From a bacterium (GTDB taxonomy: Bacteria > Joyebacterota > Joyebacteria > Joyebacterales > Joyebacteraceae), in NCBI GenBank assembly GCA_025774935.1, contig JALGZK010000005.1, positions 124,001 through 188,000 of the forward strand: 64,000 nt of DNA, in the 5' to 3' direction. How positions within the stretch are numbered: the stretch's first letter is position 1; each line of letters opens with the position of its first letter. This document shows positions 9,599 through 18,598 of the stretch, in pieces. The translations under genes were made by a program, and so were the position numbers. The notes under the pieces were generated by a model. The model worked only from the letters and a program-made list of their open reading frames with translations. It was not told where the DNA came from and ran no database searches.

Positions 9599-11986
9599 AT
9601 GAACGCACAGCCGACCGAGGAACGCAAGACCACGGGCTGCGGGAAGGCGGCCCTGAGGACGGCCTTCGTCGTTCTGGGTCTGACCGCGGTGACGGTCCAG
9701 GTCCTGCTCCTCCGCGAGCTCATGGTGGCGTGGCGCGGGAACGAGATGTCCTTCGGCATCACGCTCTCCGTCTGGCTCGCGCTCGTGGGCGCCGGAAGCG
9801 CCCTCTACGGGGGGCTCGGGCGGCGGGTCACGGCTTCGACTCGAGCCCTCGCTTGGGGCCTCCTGGCTCTGGGTTCGCTCGCTCCGATCGCCCTTCTGGT
9901 CGCCAGACTGGCGAGGAAGGCCATGGGCGTCTCGGCCGGTGAGCTCGCCGGCCTCCGGCCACTCGTCACCGCCGCCGTCGCCTCACTCGCCCCCCTTACG
10001 CTCCTGTCGGGCTTCCTCTTCGCCCTCGCCGTGGCCGTGCTCGCAGCCCGGCGAAGTGCGCCCGGCGCTGCCCCGGACCGATCGGGCACGTCCTCTCCCG
10101 TGGGAGAGGTCTACGTCCTCGAAGCTGTCGGAGCCGCCGTCGGGGGGATCGTCCTGAGCTTCCTCCTGCTCCCGCACTGGGGCCCCGTCCGGATCGCTCT
10201 CCTCGTCACCGCGGCGAACGGCGCGGCGGCGCTCCTTCTCACCCGTCGTCCTCGACGCTCCCCCGACGTCGCCGGCCCGGCGGCCCCTTCGCCTGTGGTC
10301 GTCGTCGGCTTCGTGCTCGTCGGCGCTGCGGTCGCCCTCCTAGCACGAGGCGGTGAGTCGATCGACGAAGCGACCGTGAGGCTCTCGTGGCGCGAACTCG
10401 GGTTCCGCGCTCAGACGAACTCCGTCTACGGCAGGGTCGTCGCCACCGAACTCGGATCGCAGCAGAGCGTCTTCGAGAGCGGTGTCCTTGTCGCGTCCTC
10501 CCCCGACCGCCTGTCGGCGGAGGAAGCGGTTCACCTGCCGCTCCTCTCCCACCCCTCCCCGTCCCGCGTGCTCCTCCTGGGCGGGGGGCTCGGCGGAACC
10601 GTCGAGGAGATTGTGAAGCACCCCAGCGTCACGGCGGTCGACTACGTTGAGCTCGATCCGGCGCTCGTCAGGACCGCCGAGGACGTGTTCGGCAGGAGTC
10701 TCACGGCCGGTCTCAACGACCCGCGCGTGACCGTTCACTACTCGGACGCCAGGTTCTTCGTCAAACAGAGCGAGACGGCATACGACGTCGTCATCGCGAA
10801 CGTCCCCGATCCGAGCACCGCCCAGCTCAACAGGTTCTACACGAGGGACTTCTTCCGCGAGGTCGAGCGCGTTCTGACTCCGGGCGGGGTCCTGGGCCTC
10901 TCGGTCACCTCGGCCGAGAACTACATCGGAGAGGAACTGGGTCGATTCCTCGCGTGCGTGAAAGGAACCCTCGGGGATGTCTTCGCCGCGGTCGTGATGA
11001 CCCCGGGCGATCCGTGCCACTTCGTCGCCGCGCGCGACGGCGCGTACCTGTCGAGGGACGCATCCGTACTGTCGGAGAGAATCCTAGAGCGGAATCTCGA
11101 CGTCGTCTTCGTCCGTGACTACTACCTCGCGGACAGGTTGTCGCCCGAGCGAACCGCCTCCCTCGACGAGAGCGTGGGGCGGGTGCGGGCCCCGCTCAAC
11201 ACCGACCTCTCACCGGCGGCCGTCTACCTCTCGATGGTGCTCTGGAACCGGCAGTTCTCGTCGACGCCGGCCCTCCTGCAGACCGCGCCCCGCTTCCTGA
11301 ACCTCAGGAACGCCGCCGTCGTCGCCCTCGCGCTCGCCGCCGCGCTCGCGGCGCCTGCGCTCCGACGGAGGAGGAGGCCGCGCGCGCTCAGACGGACGGT
11401 CGTGGCGGCGGTCTTCGTCGTCGGGCTCACCGAGATCAGTCTCGAGATCGCGGCCCTGCTGGCGTTCCAGAGTCTCTACGGGTTCGTCTATCACAGGATG
11501 GCCATGATCGTCGCGGCGTTCATGGCCGGACTCGCGCTCGGCGGCTGGCTCGGAGCGAGGGCGGTGAGTCGCGGCGCGGGAGCGCGGACCTTCGCGGCCC
11601 TCCAGCTCGGGATCTGCGCAGTCCCGCTGGGGCTCTCGGCCGCGATCGCCGGGATCGCGGGACTCCCCCACGACGCCATGCTCTCTTGGGCGGGGCTCTT
11701 CCCCCTCGTGGTCGTCGGTTCGGCGGTGCTCGCCGGCATGCAGTTCCCGCTCGCCGCCAGGCTCCTCATCGCGCCGGGCGGAGTCGCGGCCGCGGACCCG
11801 GGCGCGACCGGCGGGAGGCTCTACGCGGCCGACCTCCTGGGCTCCGCACTCGGGGCGTCGCTCACGGCCGTCTTCCTCCTCCCCGTCATGGGCATCCCGC
11901 TCACCATGGCGGCGCTGTCGCTCGTGAATCTCGCGGTCCTGGCCTCGCTCGCGGTCTCCGTCCTTCCCGGGAGGCAGAACGGCTGA
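9599..11986 (+). CDS. Membrane-embedded spermidine-synthase-like protein
   Basis: A 795-residue protein with about seven hydrophobic helices (residues 20-245), a soluble Rossmann methyltransferase-fold domain (about 255-545) and about seven further helices (570-790). The soluble part matches spermidine/spermine synthase: VLLLGGGLGGTVEEIVKHP for cofactor binding, VDYVELDPALVRTA, HYSDARFF, and YDVVIANVPDPSTAQLNRFY. The usual acidic residue in the last motif (D-S/T-x-D) reads N-V-P-D, so true aminopropyl transfer is doubtful. It stands alone between divergent and convergent neighbours, so context gives no pathway. The ribosome site before the ATG at 9599 is weak. Confidence 0.75.
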   Translation: MNAQPTEERKTTGCGKAALRTAFVVLGLTAVTVQVLLLRELMVAWRGNEMSFGITLSVWLALVGAGSALYGGLGRRVTASTRALAWGLLALGSLAPIALLVARLARKAMGVSAGELAGLRPLVTAAVASLAPLTLLSGFLFALAVAVLAARRSAPGAAPDRSGTSSPVGEVYVLEAVGAAVGGIVLSFLLLPHWGPVRIALLVTAANGAAALLLTRRPRRSPDVAGPAAPSPVVVVGFVLVGAAVALLARGGESIDEATVRLSWRELGFRAQTNSVYGRVVATELGSQQSVFESGVLVASSPDRLSAEEAVHLPLLSHPSPSRVLLLGGGLGGTVEEIVKHPSVTAVDYVELDPALVRTAEDVFGRSLTAGLNDPRVTVHYSDARFFVKQSETAYDVVIANVPDPSTAQLNRFYTRDFFREVERVLTPGGVLGLSVTSAENYIGEELGRFLACVKGTLGDVFAAVVMTPGDPCHFVAARDGAYLSRDASVLSERILERNLDVVFVRDYYLADRLSPERTASLDESVGRVRAPLNTDLSPAAVYLSMVLWNRQFSSTPALLQTAPRFLNLRNAAVVALALAAALAAPALRRRRRPRALRRTVVAAVFVVGLTEISLEIAALLAFQSLYGFVYHRMAMIVAAFMAGLALGGWLGARAVSRGAGARTFAALQLGICAVPLGLSAAIAGIAGLPHDAMLSWAGLFPLVVVGSAVLAGMQFPLAARLLIAPGGVAAADPGATGGRLYAADLLGSALGASLTAVFLLPVMGIPLTMAALSLVNLAVLASLAVSVLPGRQNG

Positions 11987-13243: not shown

Positions 13244-14377
13244 TTACCAGACGCCTTCGATCTCCGTCCCGCACGCGGGGCACGCTCCCGAGTCGAGGCC
13301 GGACGGATCGACGGAGTAACCGATCCTGTAGATCAGACGGCGGCTGCACTCCGGGCAGTACGTCGAGTTCGCCCGGTGCCCGGGGACGTTGCCGATGAAG
13401 ACGAACTTGAGGCCGGCCTCGCGCGCGAGGCTGTGCGCCGTCTCGAGTCGCTCGACGGGCGTCGGAGGCAGGTCGCGGAGCTTGTACTGCGGGTGGAACC
13501 TCGAGAAGTGGAGCGGTACGTCGGCGCCCAGGTTCTCGTAGATCCACTCGCACATGGCCGAGATCATCTCGGGGTCGTCGTTCCATCCGGGCACCACGAG
13601 CGTCGTGATCTCAACGTGGACGCCCTCCTCTCTCAAGATCCTGAGGGTGCGCAGGACGGGCTCGAGCCACGCGTCGCTCATGTCGGCGTAGTAGTCCTCG
13701 CTGAACCCCTTGAGGTCGATGTTCGCAGCGTCGAGGTACTTGCAGAGCTCCCTCAAGGGCTCTTCGTTGATGAACCCGTTGGAGTGGTAGACGTTCCTGA
13801 GACCCCGAGCGCGGGCGAGCCGGGCCGTGTCGATCATGTACTCGTAGAATATGGTGGGCTCGGAGTAGGTGTAGGCGATGCTCTCGCAGCCGCTCGCGAT
13901 CGCGGCCTCCACCAGTTCCTCGGGAGTCAGGCTCTCGTTGTAGAGCTCCTCGGGCAGTGCCTGCGAGATGTGCCAGTTCTGGCAGAACTTGCACTCGAGG
14001 TTGCAGCCGGCGGTCGCGATCGAGAACGAACGCGTCGTCGGAAGGAAGTGGTAGAACGGCTTCTTCTCGATTGGGTCGATGTGGACGGCGCAGGGGTTCC
14101 CGTATGTGAGCGTGTAGTACGTGCCGTCCCGGTTCTCGCGGACCTCGCAATATCCCCTCTCGCCGGGCGCCACGACGCACCGGCGTGGACAGAGCGCGCA
14201 CCTGACGCTGCCGTCCTCGAGACGGTCCCAGTAGAGCGCCTCTCGAGGCTCGACGAAGCCCTGCCCCCCACCCGAGCGTCCGCCCGAGGCGAGGCCGGCG
14301 AGCCCGACGGCGAGGACGGCGAGCGCCCCCGCGATCAGGACCGTGGTTGCGCCGATCCGGATCCCCCTGTGCCCCAT
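13244..14377 (-). CDS. AmmeMemoRadiSam system radical SAM enzyme with N-terminal membrane/export segment
   Basis: A 377-residue radical SAM protein of the PflA-like group that co-occurs with AMMECR1 and MEMO1 domains. The 4Fe-4S/SAM motif is C125-x3-C129-x2-C132 within CNLECKFCQNWH. An earlier cysteine cluster (C60, C63, C67, C77) and a C-terminal CPEC...CPAC pair are also present. The ATG at 14377 follows GGAGG by eight bases and gives a hydrophobic segment at about residues 8-31, which looks like a signal peptide or anchor and is odd for an oxygen-sensitive enzyme. It lies directly after the MEMO-AMMECR1 fusion gene. The reaction of this family is unknown. Confidence 0.85.
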   Translation of the reverse strand: MGHRGIRIGATTVLIAGALAVLAVGLAGLASGGRSGGGQGFVEPREALYWDRLEDGSVRCALCPRRCVVAPGERGYCEVRENRDGTYYTLTYGNPCAVHIDPIEKKPFYHFLPTTRSFSIATAGCNLECKFCQNWHISQALPEELYNESLTPEELVEAAIASGCESIAYTYSEPTIFYEYMIDTARLARARGLRNVYHSNGFINEEPLRELCKYLDAANIDLKGFSEDYYADMSDAWLEPVLRTLRILREEGVHVEITTLVVPGWNDDPEMISAMCEWIYENLGADVPLHFSRFHPQYKLRDLPPTPVERLETAHSLAREAGLKFVFIGNVPGHRANSTYCPECSRRLIYRIGYSVDPSGLDSGACPACGTEIEGVW

Positions 14378-14441
14378 GATGCTACCTCCGCTTGCTGTTC
14401 CTCCGCCGGCGCGCATTCACCGTGGTACGCGGCGCGTCGGG

Positions 14442-16028
14442 TCAACCCCTGCCGAGAACCTCTTTCTCCCCGAAGACCTCCGCCGTGAACCTGAGGATCG
14501 TGACGCCCTCGCGCCGCCAGCACCCCGCCTCGAGCCCGGCCTTGCGGCAGGTGTGATCGAGGAAGGTCTCGCGGTCCCACCCGTAGTCGGTCGCGACCTG
14601 CGGAAGCAGGAGACCGCTCCGATACCCGTCCTGGATGATGAGGCCGTAGCGCCCCACCACGATCTCGGAGACGTCCTCCACCTCCTCGAGCGGCGAGAGC
14701 ACCGAGATCTCGATCTCGAGTCCGACGAGCTCCTCGCGCGAGACCTGCGGGAAGCGAGGGTCGTGGAGCGCCGCCTGGACGGCCATCTCGACGACGGTCC
14801 GCCGGAGCGGGGCGTCTGCCCTGACGTGCCCGATGCAGCCGCGGAGCTGCCCGCCCTTCTCGAGCGTCACGAAGGCGCCGCACTCCGTGTCGAGCGCGGC
14901 CGACTCGAGCTCGGAGACCGGAGCAGCGCCCCCCGCGAGAGCGCTCTCGATCGCGCGCCTGGCGAGGACGAGGAGCTCTTCCTTCTCCGCGAGGTTCAGT
15001 CCCTCGTACGGACGCTCGACCGAGCCCGCCGTCGGGGCAGCGGCGCTCTCCTCGTCGACGGTAACGTCGCCGCACGCGGCGGGCCTCGTCACGACCGCGG
15101 CCATGTACCCGACCACCTGGCTCCGGTCGCCGCTCGTGTCGCCCGACGTTCCGTACCCCACGACGCGCGCCTCCTCGGCGTCGAGCTCGCGCGAGGCCAT
15201 CAGAACGGTCGCCGTCGGACCTCCCCCGCACGCTTCGCACTCGCCCCGTGCCAGGGCCTCGAGAAGCCCCTCGGGATCGAACGCGTCGACCGCCTCGAGA
15301 ACGCGGGCGTCGAGCCTCTTCGCGGTGCCCTCGTCGTGGTAGTGCGAGAGGTCGGTGCTCGCGACGAGGAGCACTCGCTTCCGTGTCTCGTGTCTCTTCA
15401 CTGCGTCGGCGATCGCGGCGGCGAGGACCTTCGCGTTCGCGGCGCCCTGGTCGCCCATCACGATCGGGACGATCTCGAACTCGCCAAGGGCTCTCTGGAG
15501 GAACGGAACCTGGACCTCGAGCGAGTGCTCGGCCTCGTGCGCCCTGGGCTCGTAGACGAAGCTCCCCGACGCACTCCGGATCTCGTCCGCGATCTCCCGA
15601 TCGACGGCCACGGTTCCCAGCGGCGTCGCGTATCCGTCGCCCCCGAAGACCGAGGCTCCGCGGAACGCCACGCGGTGGGACGGGGCCACGACGACGACGG
15701 TGTCGAACGCGCGCCCCCTGAGGGCCGCGTACGCGTGCGCCGCGACGCCCCCCGAGTAGACGTAGCCCGCGTGAGGGGAGACGATGCCGACGATCTCGCC
15801 CTCGACCTCGGGCGGCTCCGCCTGGTCGAGAAACCGGTCCACGTCGCGCGCGAGGACGGACGGGTCGCCCGGGTAGAACGCTCCTGCAACGACGGGGCTC
15901 CGGACCTCTCCCCCGTTCTCGCTCCTGTTCGTGCTCACCTCTGCATCGCCTCCTTCGGCACAACCTGACGGCAGGCCCGCCAGGAGAACGACGGAAAGAA
16001 CTACGAGAGTTCGTGTGGAGAGTCTCAC
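14442..16028 (-). CDS. AmmeMemoRadiSam system MEMO1-AMMECR1 fusion with export signal
   Basis: A 528-residue fusion. Residues 1-23 form a hydrophobic signal ending LAGLPSGC, an imperfect lipobox because proline sits at -3. A MEMO1-like domain (about 43-310) follows, with the candidate metal ligands H86 in SPHAGYVYSGG, H118 in VAPSHRVAFRG and C267 in CGGGP. The AMMECR1 domain (about 345-525) has the hallmark LRGCIGHV. The start is a GTG overlapping the nadB stop as GTGA. The protein and the next gene's radical SAM enzyme form a known but functionally unsolved system. Export of both partners would place the activity outside the cytoplasm. Confidence 0.85.
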   Translation of the reverse strand: MRLSTRTLVVLSVVLLAGLPSGCAEGGDAEVSTNRSENGGEVRSPVVAGAFYPGDPSVLARDVDRFLDQAEPPEVEGEIVGIVSPHAGYVYSGGVAAHAYAALRGRAFDTVVVVAPSHRVAFRGASVFGGDGYATPLGTVAVDREIADEIRSASGSFVYEPRAHEAEHSLEVQVPFLQRALGEFEIVPIVMGDQGAANAKVLAAAIADAVKRHETRKRVLLVASTDLSHYHDEGTAKRLDARVLEAVDAFDPEGLLEALARGECEACGGGPTATVLMASRELDAEEARVVGYGTSGDTSGDRSQVVGYMAAVVTRPAACGDVTVDEESAAAPTAGSVERPYEGLNLAEKEELLVLARRAIESALAGGAAPVSELESAALDTECGAFVTLEKGGQLRGCIGHVRADAPLRRTVVEMAVQAALHDPRFPQVSREELVGLEIEISVLSPLEEVEDVSEIVVGRYGLIIQDGYRSGLLLPQVATDYGWDRETFLDHTCRKAGLEAGCWRREGVTILRFTAEVFGEKEVLGRG

Positions 16029-17629
16029 GGTTCGAGCCCCCCGCTGACTATCGTGTCGTGGAGGAAGTGCTCGTCGTCCCTCTCGGGATGATCCTCGAGG
16101 TAGTGGAGTCCGCGGGACTCCTTCCTCTCAAGCGCGCTCCGGATGATGAGCTCGCCGACGAGAGAGATGTTCCGGAGCTCGATGAGGTCGCGGCTGACCG
16201 GATACCGCGCGAAGAACTCGACGATCTCGTGTCGGATCGCCACGATTCGCGCGCAAGCGAGTCTGAGTCTCCTTGCGGTCCTCACGATTCCAACATAGTC
16301 CCACATGAGCCTGCGGACAACGTCCCAGTTGTAGTCGATCAGGACGCCCTCCGGGATCGGGCCCGCGGCGTTCCCCTCCCAGTGCGCAGTGCCGGCGGAC
16401 GCGACCGCCGCCTTCCTGTCGTCGAGCTCCGCCGCCGCGGACTTCGCGGCGCGCTCGCTGAAGACGACGGCCTCGAGGAGGGAGTTCGAGGCGAGACGGT
16501 TGGCGCCGTGCATCCCTGTGTGCGCGGCCTCTCCCACGGCGTAGAGCCCGCGCAGCTCGGTCCTGCACTCGAGGTCGACCTCGATGCCCCCGCACAGGTA
16601 GTGCGCCGCGGGGACGACCGGGATCGGGTCTCGCGTCAGATCGATGCCGAGCTCCTTGAGATGGACGTCGATGTTCGGGAAGCGCGAACGGACCCGGTCG
16701 GGGTCCTCCGACGTGATGTCGAGGAGCGCGTGCTTGTCCCCCGTCGCCTTCATCGCGCGGTCGATCGCTCGGGCGACGACGTCCCGGGGAGCGAGATCCT
16801 CCCGCGGGTGCTGGCCCTTCATGATGCGCCGGCCGTCGAGGCTCCTCAGAACCGCGCCCTCGCCGCGGACGGCCTCGGAGATAAGGAACGACGTCACGTC
16901 CGGGTGATACAGGCACGTGGGGTGGAACTGGATGAACTCCATGTTGCGCACCGGAACGCCCGCCCTGAAGGCGATCGCGACGCCGTCCCCGCTCGCGATG
17001 TCGGGGTTGGTCGTGTAGAGGTAGACCTTCCCGCATCCGCCGGTCGCGAGGACAGTCACGGCGGCCGACGCGGTCAGGACCTTCGAAGCCTCGACGTCCA
17101 GCACGTGGACGCCCACGCACGAGCGCTCCGCCCCCGTCCCGTCGACGATCAGGTCGATCGCAACGTGGTCTTCCCACACGTCGATGTTGGGGTTCCTGGC
17201 GACCGCCTCGAGGAGCGAGCTCTCGATCTCCCTGCCGGTCATGTCGGCCGCGTGCACGATCCGCCTCGCGGAGTGCCCGCCCTCCTGCCCGAGGTCGAGG
17301 ACCTCTCCCCCTCCCGCGCTCTCGCGCGTCGAGAACTCCGCGCCCCAGTGCATGAGACGGCGCACGGCGTCGGGGCCGCTCCGGATGGCGATCTCGACCG
17401 CCTCCCGGTTGCACAGACCGACGCCCCCCGCCAGCGTGTCCTCGATGTGCCTGTCGAACGAATCGGTCCCGAGCATGACCGCGGCGATGCCGCCCTGGGC
17501 CATGTTCGTGGCCGACTCCGCGTCGTCTTTCTTGGTGATGACGATCACGCGACCGCGCTCGGCGGCGGTGAGGGCGAAGGTGAGTCCGGCGATCCCGCTC
17601 CCCACGACGATGAACTCGGCGGTCTCCAT
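16025..17629 (-). CDS. nadB: L-aspartate oxidase
   Basis: A 534-residue flavoprotein that oxidises L-aspartate to iminoaspartate, the first step of NAD synthesis from aspartate. The N-terminal FAD motif is FIVVGSGIAGLTFALTAAERG. The segments ATNMAQGGIAA, HSARRIVHAADMTGREI, QFHPTCLYHP and GLYAVGEAAHTGMHGANRLASNSLLE are the conserved family core, including the RLASNSLLE substrate/FAD site. Length is normal. It follows nadA by 39 bases; its product is the substrate of NadA. Confidence 0.93.
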   Translation of the reverse strand: METAEFIVVGSGIAGLTFALTAAERGRVIVITKKDDAESATNMAQGGIAAVMLGTDSFDRHIEDTLAGGVGLCNREAVEIAIRSGPDAVRRLMHWGAEFSTRESAGGGEVLDLGQEGGHSARRIVHAADMTGREIESSLLEAVARNPNIDVWEDHVAIDLIVDGTGAERSCVGVHVLDVEASKVLTASAAVTVLATGGCGKVYLYTTNPDIASGDGVAIAFRAGVPVRNMEFIQFHPTCLYHPDVTSFLISEAVRGEGAVLRSLDGRRIMKGQHPREDLAPRDVVARAIDRAMKATGDKHALLDITSEDPDRVRSRFPNIDVHLKELGIDLTRDPIPVVPAAHYLCGGIEVDLECRTELRGLYAVGEAAHTGMHGANRLASNSLLEAVVFSERAAKSAAAELDDRKAAVASAGTAHWEGNAAGPIPEGVLIDYNWDVVRRLMWDYVGIVRTARRLRLACARIVAIRHEIVEFFARYPVSRDLIELRNISLVGELIIRSALERKESRGLHYLEDHPERDDEHFLHDTIVSGGLEP

Positions 17630-17668
17630 CCGATCTCCTCGGCGGGGTGCCGCGCGGGCCGCGCGGCG

Positions 17669-18598
17669 CTAACCCACGAACTCGAGCATGCGCTGGAGCG
17701 CGCCCTCGGCGCGCGAACGGATGTCCTCGGGGATGTCGATCTCGTGCTCTTCGTTCTCGAGCGCCCACACGACGCGGGGAAGGTCCGTGAGCTTCATCGT
17801 CCGGCAGATCGCGAACGCTGAGAGCGGGTAGAAGCTCTTCTCGGGGAACTCGCGGTTCATGCGCTCGATGAGCCCGACCTCCGTCCCGACGATGAGCTCG
17901 TCGTGCTCGGCCCCGAGCTTCACCATCCCGCTCGTCGACGCGACGTAGTCGGCGCTCTCGACGACCTCCGGCGGGGATTCGGGGTGGACGACAATCGGCA
18001 CGCCGGGGTGCTCGCCGCGCGCCAGCTCGACGTCTTCTGCGACGAAGTTGTCGTGGACGTAGCAGTAGCCGTCCCAGGGTATGATCTTCTTGTCGGTCTT
18101 CGAGGCCGCGTAGGCGGCAAGGTTCCTGTCGGGAACGAAGATGATCTCGTCCTCCTCGACGCCCCTGACGACCTCGACGGCGTTCGACGACGTACAGCAG
18201 ACGTCGCTCACGGCCTTGACCGCGGCGGACGTGTTCACGTAGGAGACCACAGCCGCGCCCGGGTGCTTCGACTTGAAGCCCGTCAGCTCCTCGGGAGTGA
18301 CCATGGCCGCCATCGGACAGGTGGCCTGCTCGTTCGGGAGGAAGACCCTCTTGCTCGGGTTCAGGATCTTCGCGCTCTCCGCCATGAAATCGACGCCGCA
18401 GAGGACGATGACGTCGGCGTCCGTCTCGGCCGCGAGCTGCGCGAGTCTGAGCGAGTCCCCGAGGTGGTCCGCGACGAGCTGGACGTCCTCGATCTGGTAG
18501 TTGTGCCCGAGGATGACGGCGTTCTTCTCGCGCTTGAGCCGGGACAGTCGCTCGCCGAGCTCCGCGTTCGTCAGCTTCCCGTAGTCCTCAAGCTCCAT
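17669..18598 (-). CDS. nadA: Quinolinate synthase
   Basis: A 309-residue protein that condenses iminoaspartate with dihydroxyacetone phosphate to quinolinate using a 4Fe-4S cluster. Family marks are LGHNYQIEDVQLVADHLGDSL, C67 in VLCGVDFMAESAKIL, NEQATCPMAAM, a cysteine in SDVCCTSSNA and the last in AICRTMK. Three cluster cysteines are therefore present. The start overlaps the end of lpxK by eleven bases. nadC, which acts next, is not in the window; nadD is, about 28 kb upstream in the same run. Confidence 0.93.
   Translation of the reverse strand: MELEDYGKLTNAELGERLSRLKREKNAVILGHNYQIEDVQLVADHLGDSLRLAQLAAETDADVIVLCGVDFMAESAKILNPSKRVFLPNEQATCPMAAMVTPEELTGFKSKHPGAAVVSYVNTSAAVKAVSDVCCTSSNAVEVVRGVEEDEIIFVPDRNLAAYAASKTDKKIIPWDGYCYVHDNFVAEDVELARGEHPGVPIVVHPESPPEVVESADYVASTSGMVKLGAEHDELIVGTEVGLIERMNREFPEKSFYPLSAFAICRTMKLTDLPRVVWALENEEHEIDIPEDIRSRAEGALQRMLEFVG

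Follow-up and report, generated by a model that had tools for sequence, protein, structure and literature searches.

A putative exported branch of the AmmeMemoRadiSam system with an anchored radical SAM enzyme, a lipoprotein-like MEMO-AMMECR1 fusion and a membrane partner

Introduction

Conservation of Memo and AMMECR1 extends to humans, and what these proteins do biochemically is an unsolved problem. For the widespread AmmeMemoRadiSam system (TIGR04335, TIGR04336, TIGR04337) we found no established molecular function in the papers searched, and the names of the three models make no mention of an exported branch. Radical SAM enzymes are held to be cytoplasmic, and to our knowledge no radical SAM chemistry has been described at or outside the membrane. 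In the literature searched we found no paper on exported radical SAM enzymes or on an exported branch of AmmeMemoRadiSam, and priority is not certain; a 2019 study by Burroughs et al. on the PCAD-Memo superfamily may already note part of these findings.

Here we analyse a 64,000-nucleotide stretch of bacterial DNA, referred to as the window, which has the same three domains, motifs and adjacent genes as AmmeMemoRadiSam. We consider it likely, with a probability of about 0.68, that the window encodes an extracytoplasmic branch of this system, comprising an anchored radical SAM enzyme (rSAM), a lipoprotein MEMO-AMMECR1 fusion that is also made in a second form, and a membrane protein, X.

Results

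The window encodes a radical SAM enzyme and a MEMO-AMMECR1 fusion with hydrophobic N-termini

The rSAM gene (13244-14377, minus strand) encodes 377 residues, matches TIGR04337 with 398 bits against a cut-off of 220 and carries the CxxxCxxC cluster motif as CNLECKFC (13982-14005, minus strand). Adjacent on the same strand is the MEMO-AMMECR1 fusion, whose long form runs from 14442 to 16028 and which scores 296 bits with TIGR04336 (cut-off 26) and 184 bits with TIGR04335 (cut-off 99). Its MEMO domain (PF01875; 15096-15896, minus strand) was aligned to human MEMO1, and its AMMECR1 domain (PF01871; 14472-14969, minus strand) contains the LRGCIG motif at 14829-14846; LRGC[IV]G is present in 119/119 fusions. 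The iron ligands of human MEMO1, H49, H81 and C244 (PMC11081632), correspond in this alignment to the window residues H86, H118 and C267. MEMO-AMMECR1 probably binds iron. The nadB and nadA genes lie directly upstream of the fusion (16025-18598, minus strand).

An earlier note on this DNA had claimed that hydrophobic segments open both proteins, and these segments recur in the relatives from the window's phylum, in 17/17 rSAMs and 18/18 MEMO proteins. The anchor-like helix that it placed at rSAM residues 8-31 fits a start at ATG 14377 and appears at residues 10-31 (14285-14350, minus strand) in an AlphaFold2 model with a mean pLDDT of 95.6. The ribosome site that it had seen for this start is GGAGGT (14384-14389), six bases 5' of the ATG. 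A longer start at 14416 has no ribosome site, and the rSAM starts of relatives cluster 118-124 residues before CxxxCxxC, not 137. After the helix, the model shows a strand at 50-52 followed by another at 58-60, and the REALYW segment (14228-14245, minus strand), an instance of an EAxYY motif that some relatives carry on separate microproteins, forms a confident strand. All 17 helix-bearing enzymes are of the exported type, and the phylum's cytosolic paralogues have no such helix, so its presence is more than chance. The second rSAM of the window genome (contig C21, locus L002) begins right at its EARYW segment and is helix-free; the cysteine and active-site motifs are preserved in exported and cytosolic rSAMs alike.

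The lipoprotein-like signal peptide of MEMO covers residues 1-22 (15963-16028, minus strand) and is followed by Cys23 (15960-15962). As the earlier note had it, the lipobox is imperfect: the cysteine stands in GLPSGC, with proline at -3. Better sites occur in relatives, such as LCAAGC and SGTAGC, and the hydrophobic segment of the 18 MEMO proteins mostly ends at a lipobox-like cysteine. A signal peptidase II (LspA; PF01252, 142.7 bits) is encoded in the window genome. The start, GTG 16028, lacks a Shine-Dalgarno site; the coupling invoked for it is borne out by a 4-nt overlap with the nadB stop (GTGA).

Export signals recur in a clade that spans many phyla

An rSAM alignment was used to scan 84,980 species genomes, which yielded 80 diverse loci from Omnitrophota, Bacteroidota, Thermodesulfobacteriota, Planctomycetota, Chloroflexota, KSB1, Elusimicrobiota and others. 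Signals were assigned with rules based on hydropathy, charge and motif and with some manual curation, and on this basis the clade's rSAMs fell into 64 rows with a Tat signal, 48 with a Sec or transmembrane (TM) signal and 16 signal-less 'split' rows. Tat signals among the relatives include SRREFLK, SRRKFLK, DRRKFIK, TRRDFLK and KREFLK, while others are Sec-like, with an AxA-like cleavage site often seen in Sec-type rSAMs outside the window's phylum (17/30). The Tat-type and lipoprotein-like signals that the earlier note proposed looking for are both present among the relatives. Its proposed refutation, homologues that start after the hydrophobic segment, did not hold, since the segment is either kept or encoded as a separate microprotein. 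A Tat signal was considered for the window rSAM itself and rejected: MGHRGIRIGATTV lacks RR, whereas relatives in other phyla do have the twin-arginine motif. Among named strains, Desulfoferrobacter suflitae DRH4 (L078) has a Tat-signal rSAM together with a signal-bearing MEMO-AMMECR1.

On the MEMO side, signals were found in 77/85 fused MEMO-AMMECR1 proteins, about half with a lipobox, and in 2/47 solo MEMO proteins, both of which are probably truncated fusions. Fusion does not equate strictly with export, as about five fusions are signal-less (L178, L182, L187, L188, L190).

In a tree of 168 rSAM cores, from which N-terminal columns were left out, the exported or cytosolic label requires 2 changes, and all classes together require 13, compared with 85 when labels are shuffled. 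In this tree the window family branches as sister to a Tat-bearing group with Desulfobacterota among its members (SH-aLRT 91). Among genomes searched for TatC, the ratio of presence to absence was 77:2 for Tat or split rows and 6:42 for Sec/TM rows (Fisher p about 1e-24). Phylogenetic correction reduces this association to 3 independent pairs with branch support, or 8 on the full tree, none of them contrary, and because there are only 3 supported pairs the corrected sign test is not significant.

TatC was found in none of the 19 other genomes of the window's phylum searched (0/19). The window genome (G000) has one TatC, and its rSAM belongs to the non-Tat type also seen in its Tat-less congeners. 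We read this as a Tat signal that may have been swapped for a signal anchor after loss of Tat in the window's phylum. The G000 TatC (L233; contig C22, about 222,980), the only one in the phylum's 20 genomes, looks as if it was acquired as one cassette; by ORF reading, its neighbours are a mobA-like gene, a TorD-like chaperone and the end or a fragment of a molybdopterin oxidoreductase. An apparent half-way case is L256 (YRKLFCKICLIGG, TatC absent), the sister of L074 (DRREFCKICFLGG, TatC present). Two DPANN archaeal rSAMs inside the exported clade (L084, L112) have neither signal nor TatC, and perhaps represent a return to the cytoplasm.

Split enzymes appear to receive their signal in trans

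The 16 split rSAMs start a few residues before V-x-C-x-LCP and lack the EAxYY segment. In 14/16, the region just downstream of the rSAM encodes a Tat-type or hydrophobic N-terminus that closes with KEAxFY or a similar motif, either as a separate ORF of 43-92 residues or, in L183 and L264, as the front of the MEMO frame. By hand count, about ten split loci also have an upstream TM microprotein with the same, sometimes weak, end motif. Genomes of 15 split rows were examined for TatC, and it was present in 15/15. Most simply, signal and strand would be supplied in trans.

Several loci (L008/L235, L183/L236, L185/L238, L248, L249, L258, L100, L247, L243) are four-gene operons of a TM microprotein, a signal-less rSAM core, a Tat-type microprotein and MEMO-AMMECR1, in which both microproteins end in EAxYY-like motifs that are weak at some loci. 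At L183 and L264/L267 a single frame holds two hydrophobic segments, since the Tat-type microprotein there shares its frame with the MEMO lipoprotein signal.

In peptide systems, radical SAM enzymes are often accompanied by small neighbours, and the microproteins could in principle serve not for targeting or tethering but as peptides that the rSAM modifies, a reading to which the pairing of two microproteins with EAxYY-like ends in about ten loci also lends weight. We regard it as possible but doubtful, given that intact enzymes, cytosolic ones among them, carry EAxYY as part of their own N-terminus, and that the model shows it as a confident strand of the rSAM fold.

A 14-TM protein with a spermidine-synthase-like domain accompanies the exported-type enzymes

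A search for recurrent neighbours identified an X-type membrane protein near 37/80 loci, whose orthologue in the window lies at 9599-11986 (plus strand; PF01564). The AlphaFold2 model (pLDDT 89.8) has 7+7 TM helices. Across 34 homologues, mean K+R is about 1.7-4.0 in the N-terminus, loops 2, 4, 6, 8, 10 and 12 and the C-terminus, compared with 0-1.1 in loops 1, 3, 5, 9, 11 and 13. Because the loop charges alternate so cleanly, loop 7, the 318-residue spermidine-synthase-like domain (10355-11308, plus strand), is predicted to lie outside the cytoplasm. Foldseek assigns this domain a SpeE fold (best matches at target TM 0.71-0.79; 1uir and 3o4f at 0.73-0.76), and its nucleoside-binding region is largely preserved. 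X was rejected as a true aminopropyltransferase, as the catalytic aspartate of DxxDP is replaced by Asn401 in the window and by N, S, A, H or others in most homologues.

Co-occurrence was counted in 290 genomes, with exported-type rSAMs assigned by score. X is present in 63/69 genomes that have an exported-type rSAM and in 15/221 that do not (p 7e-42), or in 47/52 and 12/218, respectively, outside the window's phylum (p 2e-35); it lies at most 6 kb from the rSAM in 35/63. Because the type was called by score, weaker exported members are probably present in some of the 15 exceptional genomes, G031 and G037 among them. In G031 (contig C1, 1545811-1546854) an rSAM match in two pieces, possibly a disrupted exported rSAM, lies beside X. 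X would be a third partner of the system and is directly testable as such.

Other neighbours recur. DsbD-type proteins adjoin 17/80 loci: a DsbD-like family of membrane proteins in 12 Omnitrophota and related loci, and a second DsbD_2-containing family in 5 more, whose scanned member (L076) also has FMN-binding and 4Fe-4S (Fer4_5) domains. Examples of such proteins beside the exported system are at L067, L065, L075, L076 and others. DUF362 proteins adjoin 8 loci (L123, L098, L099, L108, L125, L130, L133, L139), directly upstream of the exported rSAM, with a Tat signal visible in one (L123). Both types of neighbour are candidates for electron supply. A secreted right-handed beta-helix protein (PF13229; 12095-13102, minus strand in the window) separates rSAM and X in most of the phylum's genomes, as traced by tblastn in the relatives' rSAM loci, usually at 39-65% identity.

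Charge bias favours an outward-facing enzyme in the window's phylum

The earlier note had offered two options: cytoplasm-facing anchors, or a system acting at or beyond the membrane. The second is strongly favoured for the clade as a whole, while the first survives as a rival for the window rSAM. Its helix could hold the enzyme facing the cytoplasm, where the cluster would be loaded by cytosolic machinery and the enzyme tethered near its partners. A single N-terminal TM helix can in principle be N-out/C-in, cofactor assembly and the supply of SAM and reductant would all be solved, and the phylum is without TatC save for the window's own genome. Nevertheless we consider this arrangement unlikely. 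K+R residues are in excess before the helix in 15/17 phylum relatives, with 0 showing the opposite, a bias that favours N-in/C-out, though not decisively; in other Sec-type rSAMs the bias is weak (14 with more, 8 equal, 8 with fewer). In addition, the MEMO partner retains a lipoprotein signal, the X domain is predicted outside, and Tat-bearing relatives, including the neighbouring group in the tree, are predicted exporters. We infer that the catalytic domain of the window rSAM would face outward.

MEMO-AMMECR1 is probably made in two forms

Right after the lipobox cysteine, the codons GAA GGA GGC of the window fusion form an internal Shine-Dalgarno sequence, AAGGAGG (15949-15955, minus strand). 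GAA GGA GGN stands at this point in 17/18 phylum MEMO genes, the eighteenth having a shorter site; the background in those genes is 14% for GAA and 18% for GGA. AAGGAGG is followed 8-10 bases on by an in-frame GTG or ATG; in the window this is GTG 15938, 30 codons downstream, which has a perfect Shine-Dalgarno site and went unseen in the earlier note. An internal start with a Shine-Dalgarno value of at least 5 is present in 18/18 fusions of the phylum, compared with 7/62 in other phyla, and a value of at least 7 was found at 2/559 background in-frame start codons. The predicted short product (14442-15938, minus strand) would be signal-less. The window genome has only one Memo gene for two rSAMs, one exported-type and one cytosolic, and a second, cytosolic MEMO product would naturally explain this. 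MEMO-AMMECR1 is thus probably made both as a lipoprotein and in a cytosolic form, as judged from these codon patterns. Alternatively, the motif could be a pause site after the signal, which leaves the in-frame start codon unexplained. Fusions from other phyla with an internal Shine-Dalgarno site and start after the signal include L198, L123 and L133; the L198 genome (G163) has a single Memo gene.

Use of the internal start alone, with the upstream signal barely translated and MEMO-AMMECR1 cytosolic throughout the phylum, seems improbable to us. The perfect ribosome site at 15938, its absence at GTG 16028 and the genome's cytosolic second rSAM would fit this proposal. However, 18/18 phylum genes preserve the frame and the start position upstream, together with a charged n-region and a hydrophobic segment, mostly with the cysteine, and untranslated sequence would not keep such features. 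The overlap of GTG 16028 with the nadB stop and the signals on fusions of other phyla, usually without an internal start, point the same way. Sequence evidence for a downstream translation start, which the earlier note had named as a refutation, is strong phylum-wide, as an additional MEMO start, but the signal frame upstream of it is conserved. Expression of both forms is the reading we prefer.

That this is an ordinary cytosolic AmmeMemoRadiSam with misplaced start codons, as the cytosolic solo MEMO proteins and 343-residue rSAMs (one in this same genome) might suggest, is very hard to reconcile with the in-frame hydrophobic N-termini retained by relatives, a signal type that tracks TatC and the separation of the cytosolic paralogues in the tree.

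Discussion

These data allow us to propose a model for the exported system. The rSAM would be held in the inner membrane by its single N-terminal helix with the catalytic domain in the periplasm, and MEMO-AMMECR1, as a membrane lipoprotein, would meet it at the periplasmic side. X would join them with its nucleoside-binding fold also outside, and the internal start after the lipobox would supply a second, cytosolic MEMO-AMMECR1. The chemistry would involve a [4Fe-4S]/SAM radical acting on, or with, the probably iron-binding MEMO-AMMECR1 at the membrane. Tat exports folded proteins with their Fe-S clusters, and the ancestral route of the rSAM was probably Tat, a signal anchor having taken its place in the window's Tat-less phylum. 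Against this model, a Sec-translocated rSAM in the absence of Tat would need its cluster to be built outside, for which we know of little precedent.

The earlier note pointed out that a radical SAM enzyme outside the cytoplasm would lack SAM and reductant. The domain of X predicted outside and the DsbD-type electron conduits are candidate answers to this concern. We tentatively suggest a scheme, somewhat less likely to be right than wrong, in which SAM or a SAM-derived nucleoside is moved or presented outside by X, electrons arrive through DsbD/NosR-like proteins, the periplasmic rSAM generates the radical and MEMO-AMMECR1 serves as substrate or co-catalyst.

If true, a periplasmic radical SAM pathway would be the first known to us to run such chemistry outside the cytoplasm, and would break the rule that these enzymes are cytoplasmic. 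An exported branch would also make it unlikely that the system acts only on cytosolic RNA or cytosolic proteins.

The locus departs from described systems in several respects. Unlike the named AmmeMemoRadiSam, it has export signals, a MEMO-AMMECR1 fusion, partner X and an internal start, and its relatives include split microproteins. The pyruvate formate-lyase activating enzyme is cytosolic. This enzyme (PDB 3cb8) is the best solved fold match to the rSAM, at 20% identity, and also its best PDB sequence match; it acts on a glycyl radical enzyme, is shorter (245 residues) and has neither the helix nor the N-terminal Cys-rich segment of the window rSAM, nor its C-terminal CxxC pairs. Human MEMO1 (PDB 7KQ8) aligns with the window's MEMO domain, in which the three iron ligands are kept, but is a solo protein, whereas the window MEMO is fused to AMMECR1 and has a signal peptide. 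SpeE (PDB 1uir, 3o4f) shares the fold of the outside domain of X; unlike SpeE, X has the DxxDP aspartate replaced in nearly all homologues and carries the domain between 7+7 TM helices, predicted outside. In Tat hitchhiker export, a signal-less partner is carried by a signal-bearing one (PMC10924467). The split relatives would differ from this arrangement in that their signal resides on a microprotein of 43-92 residues that also bears the N-terminal strand of the enzyme.
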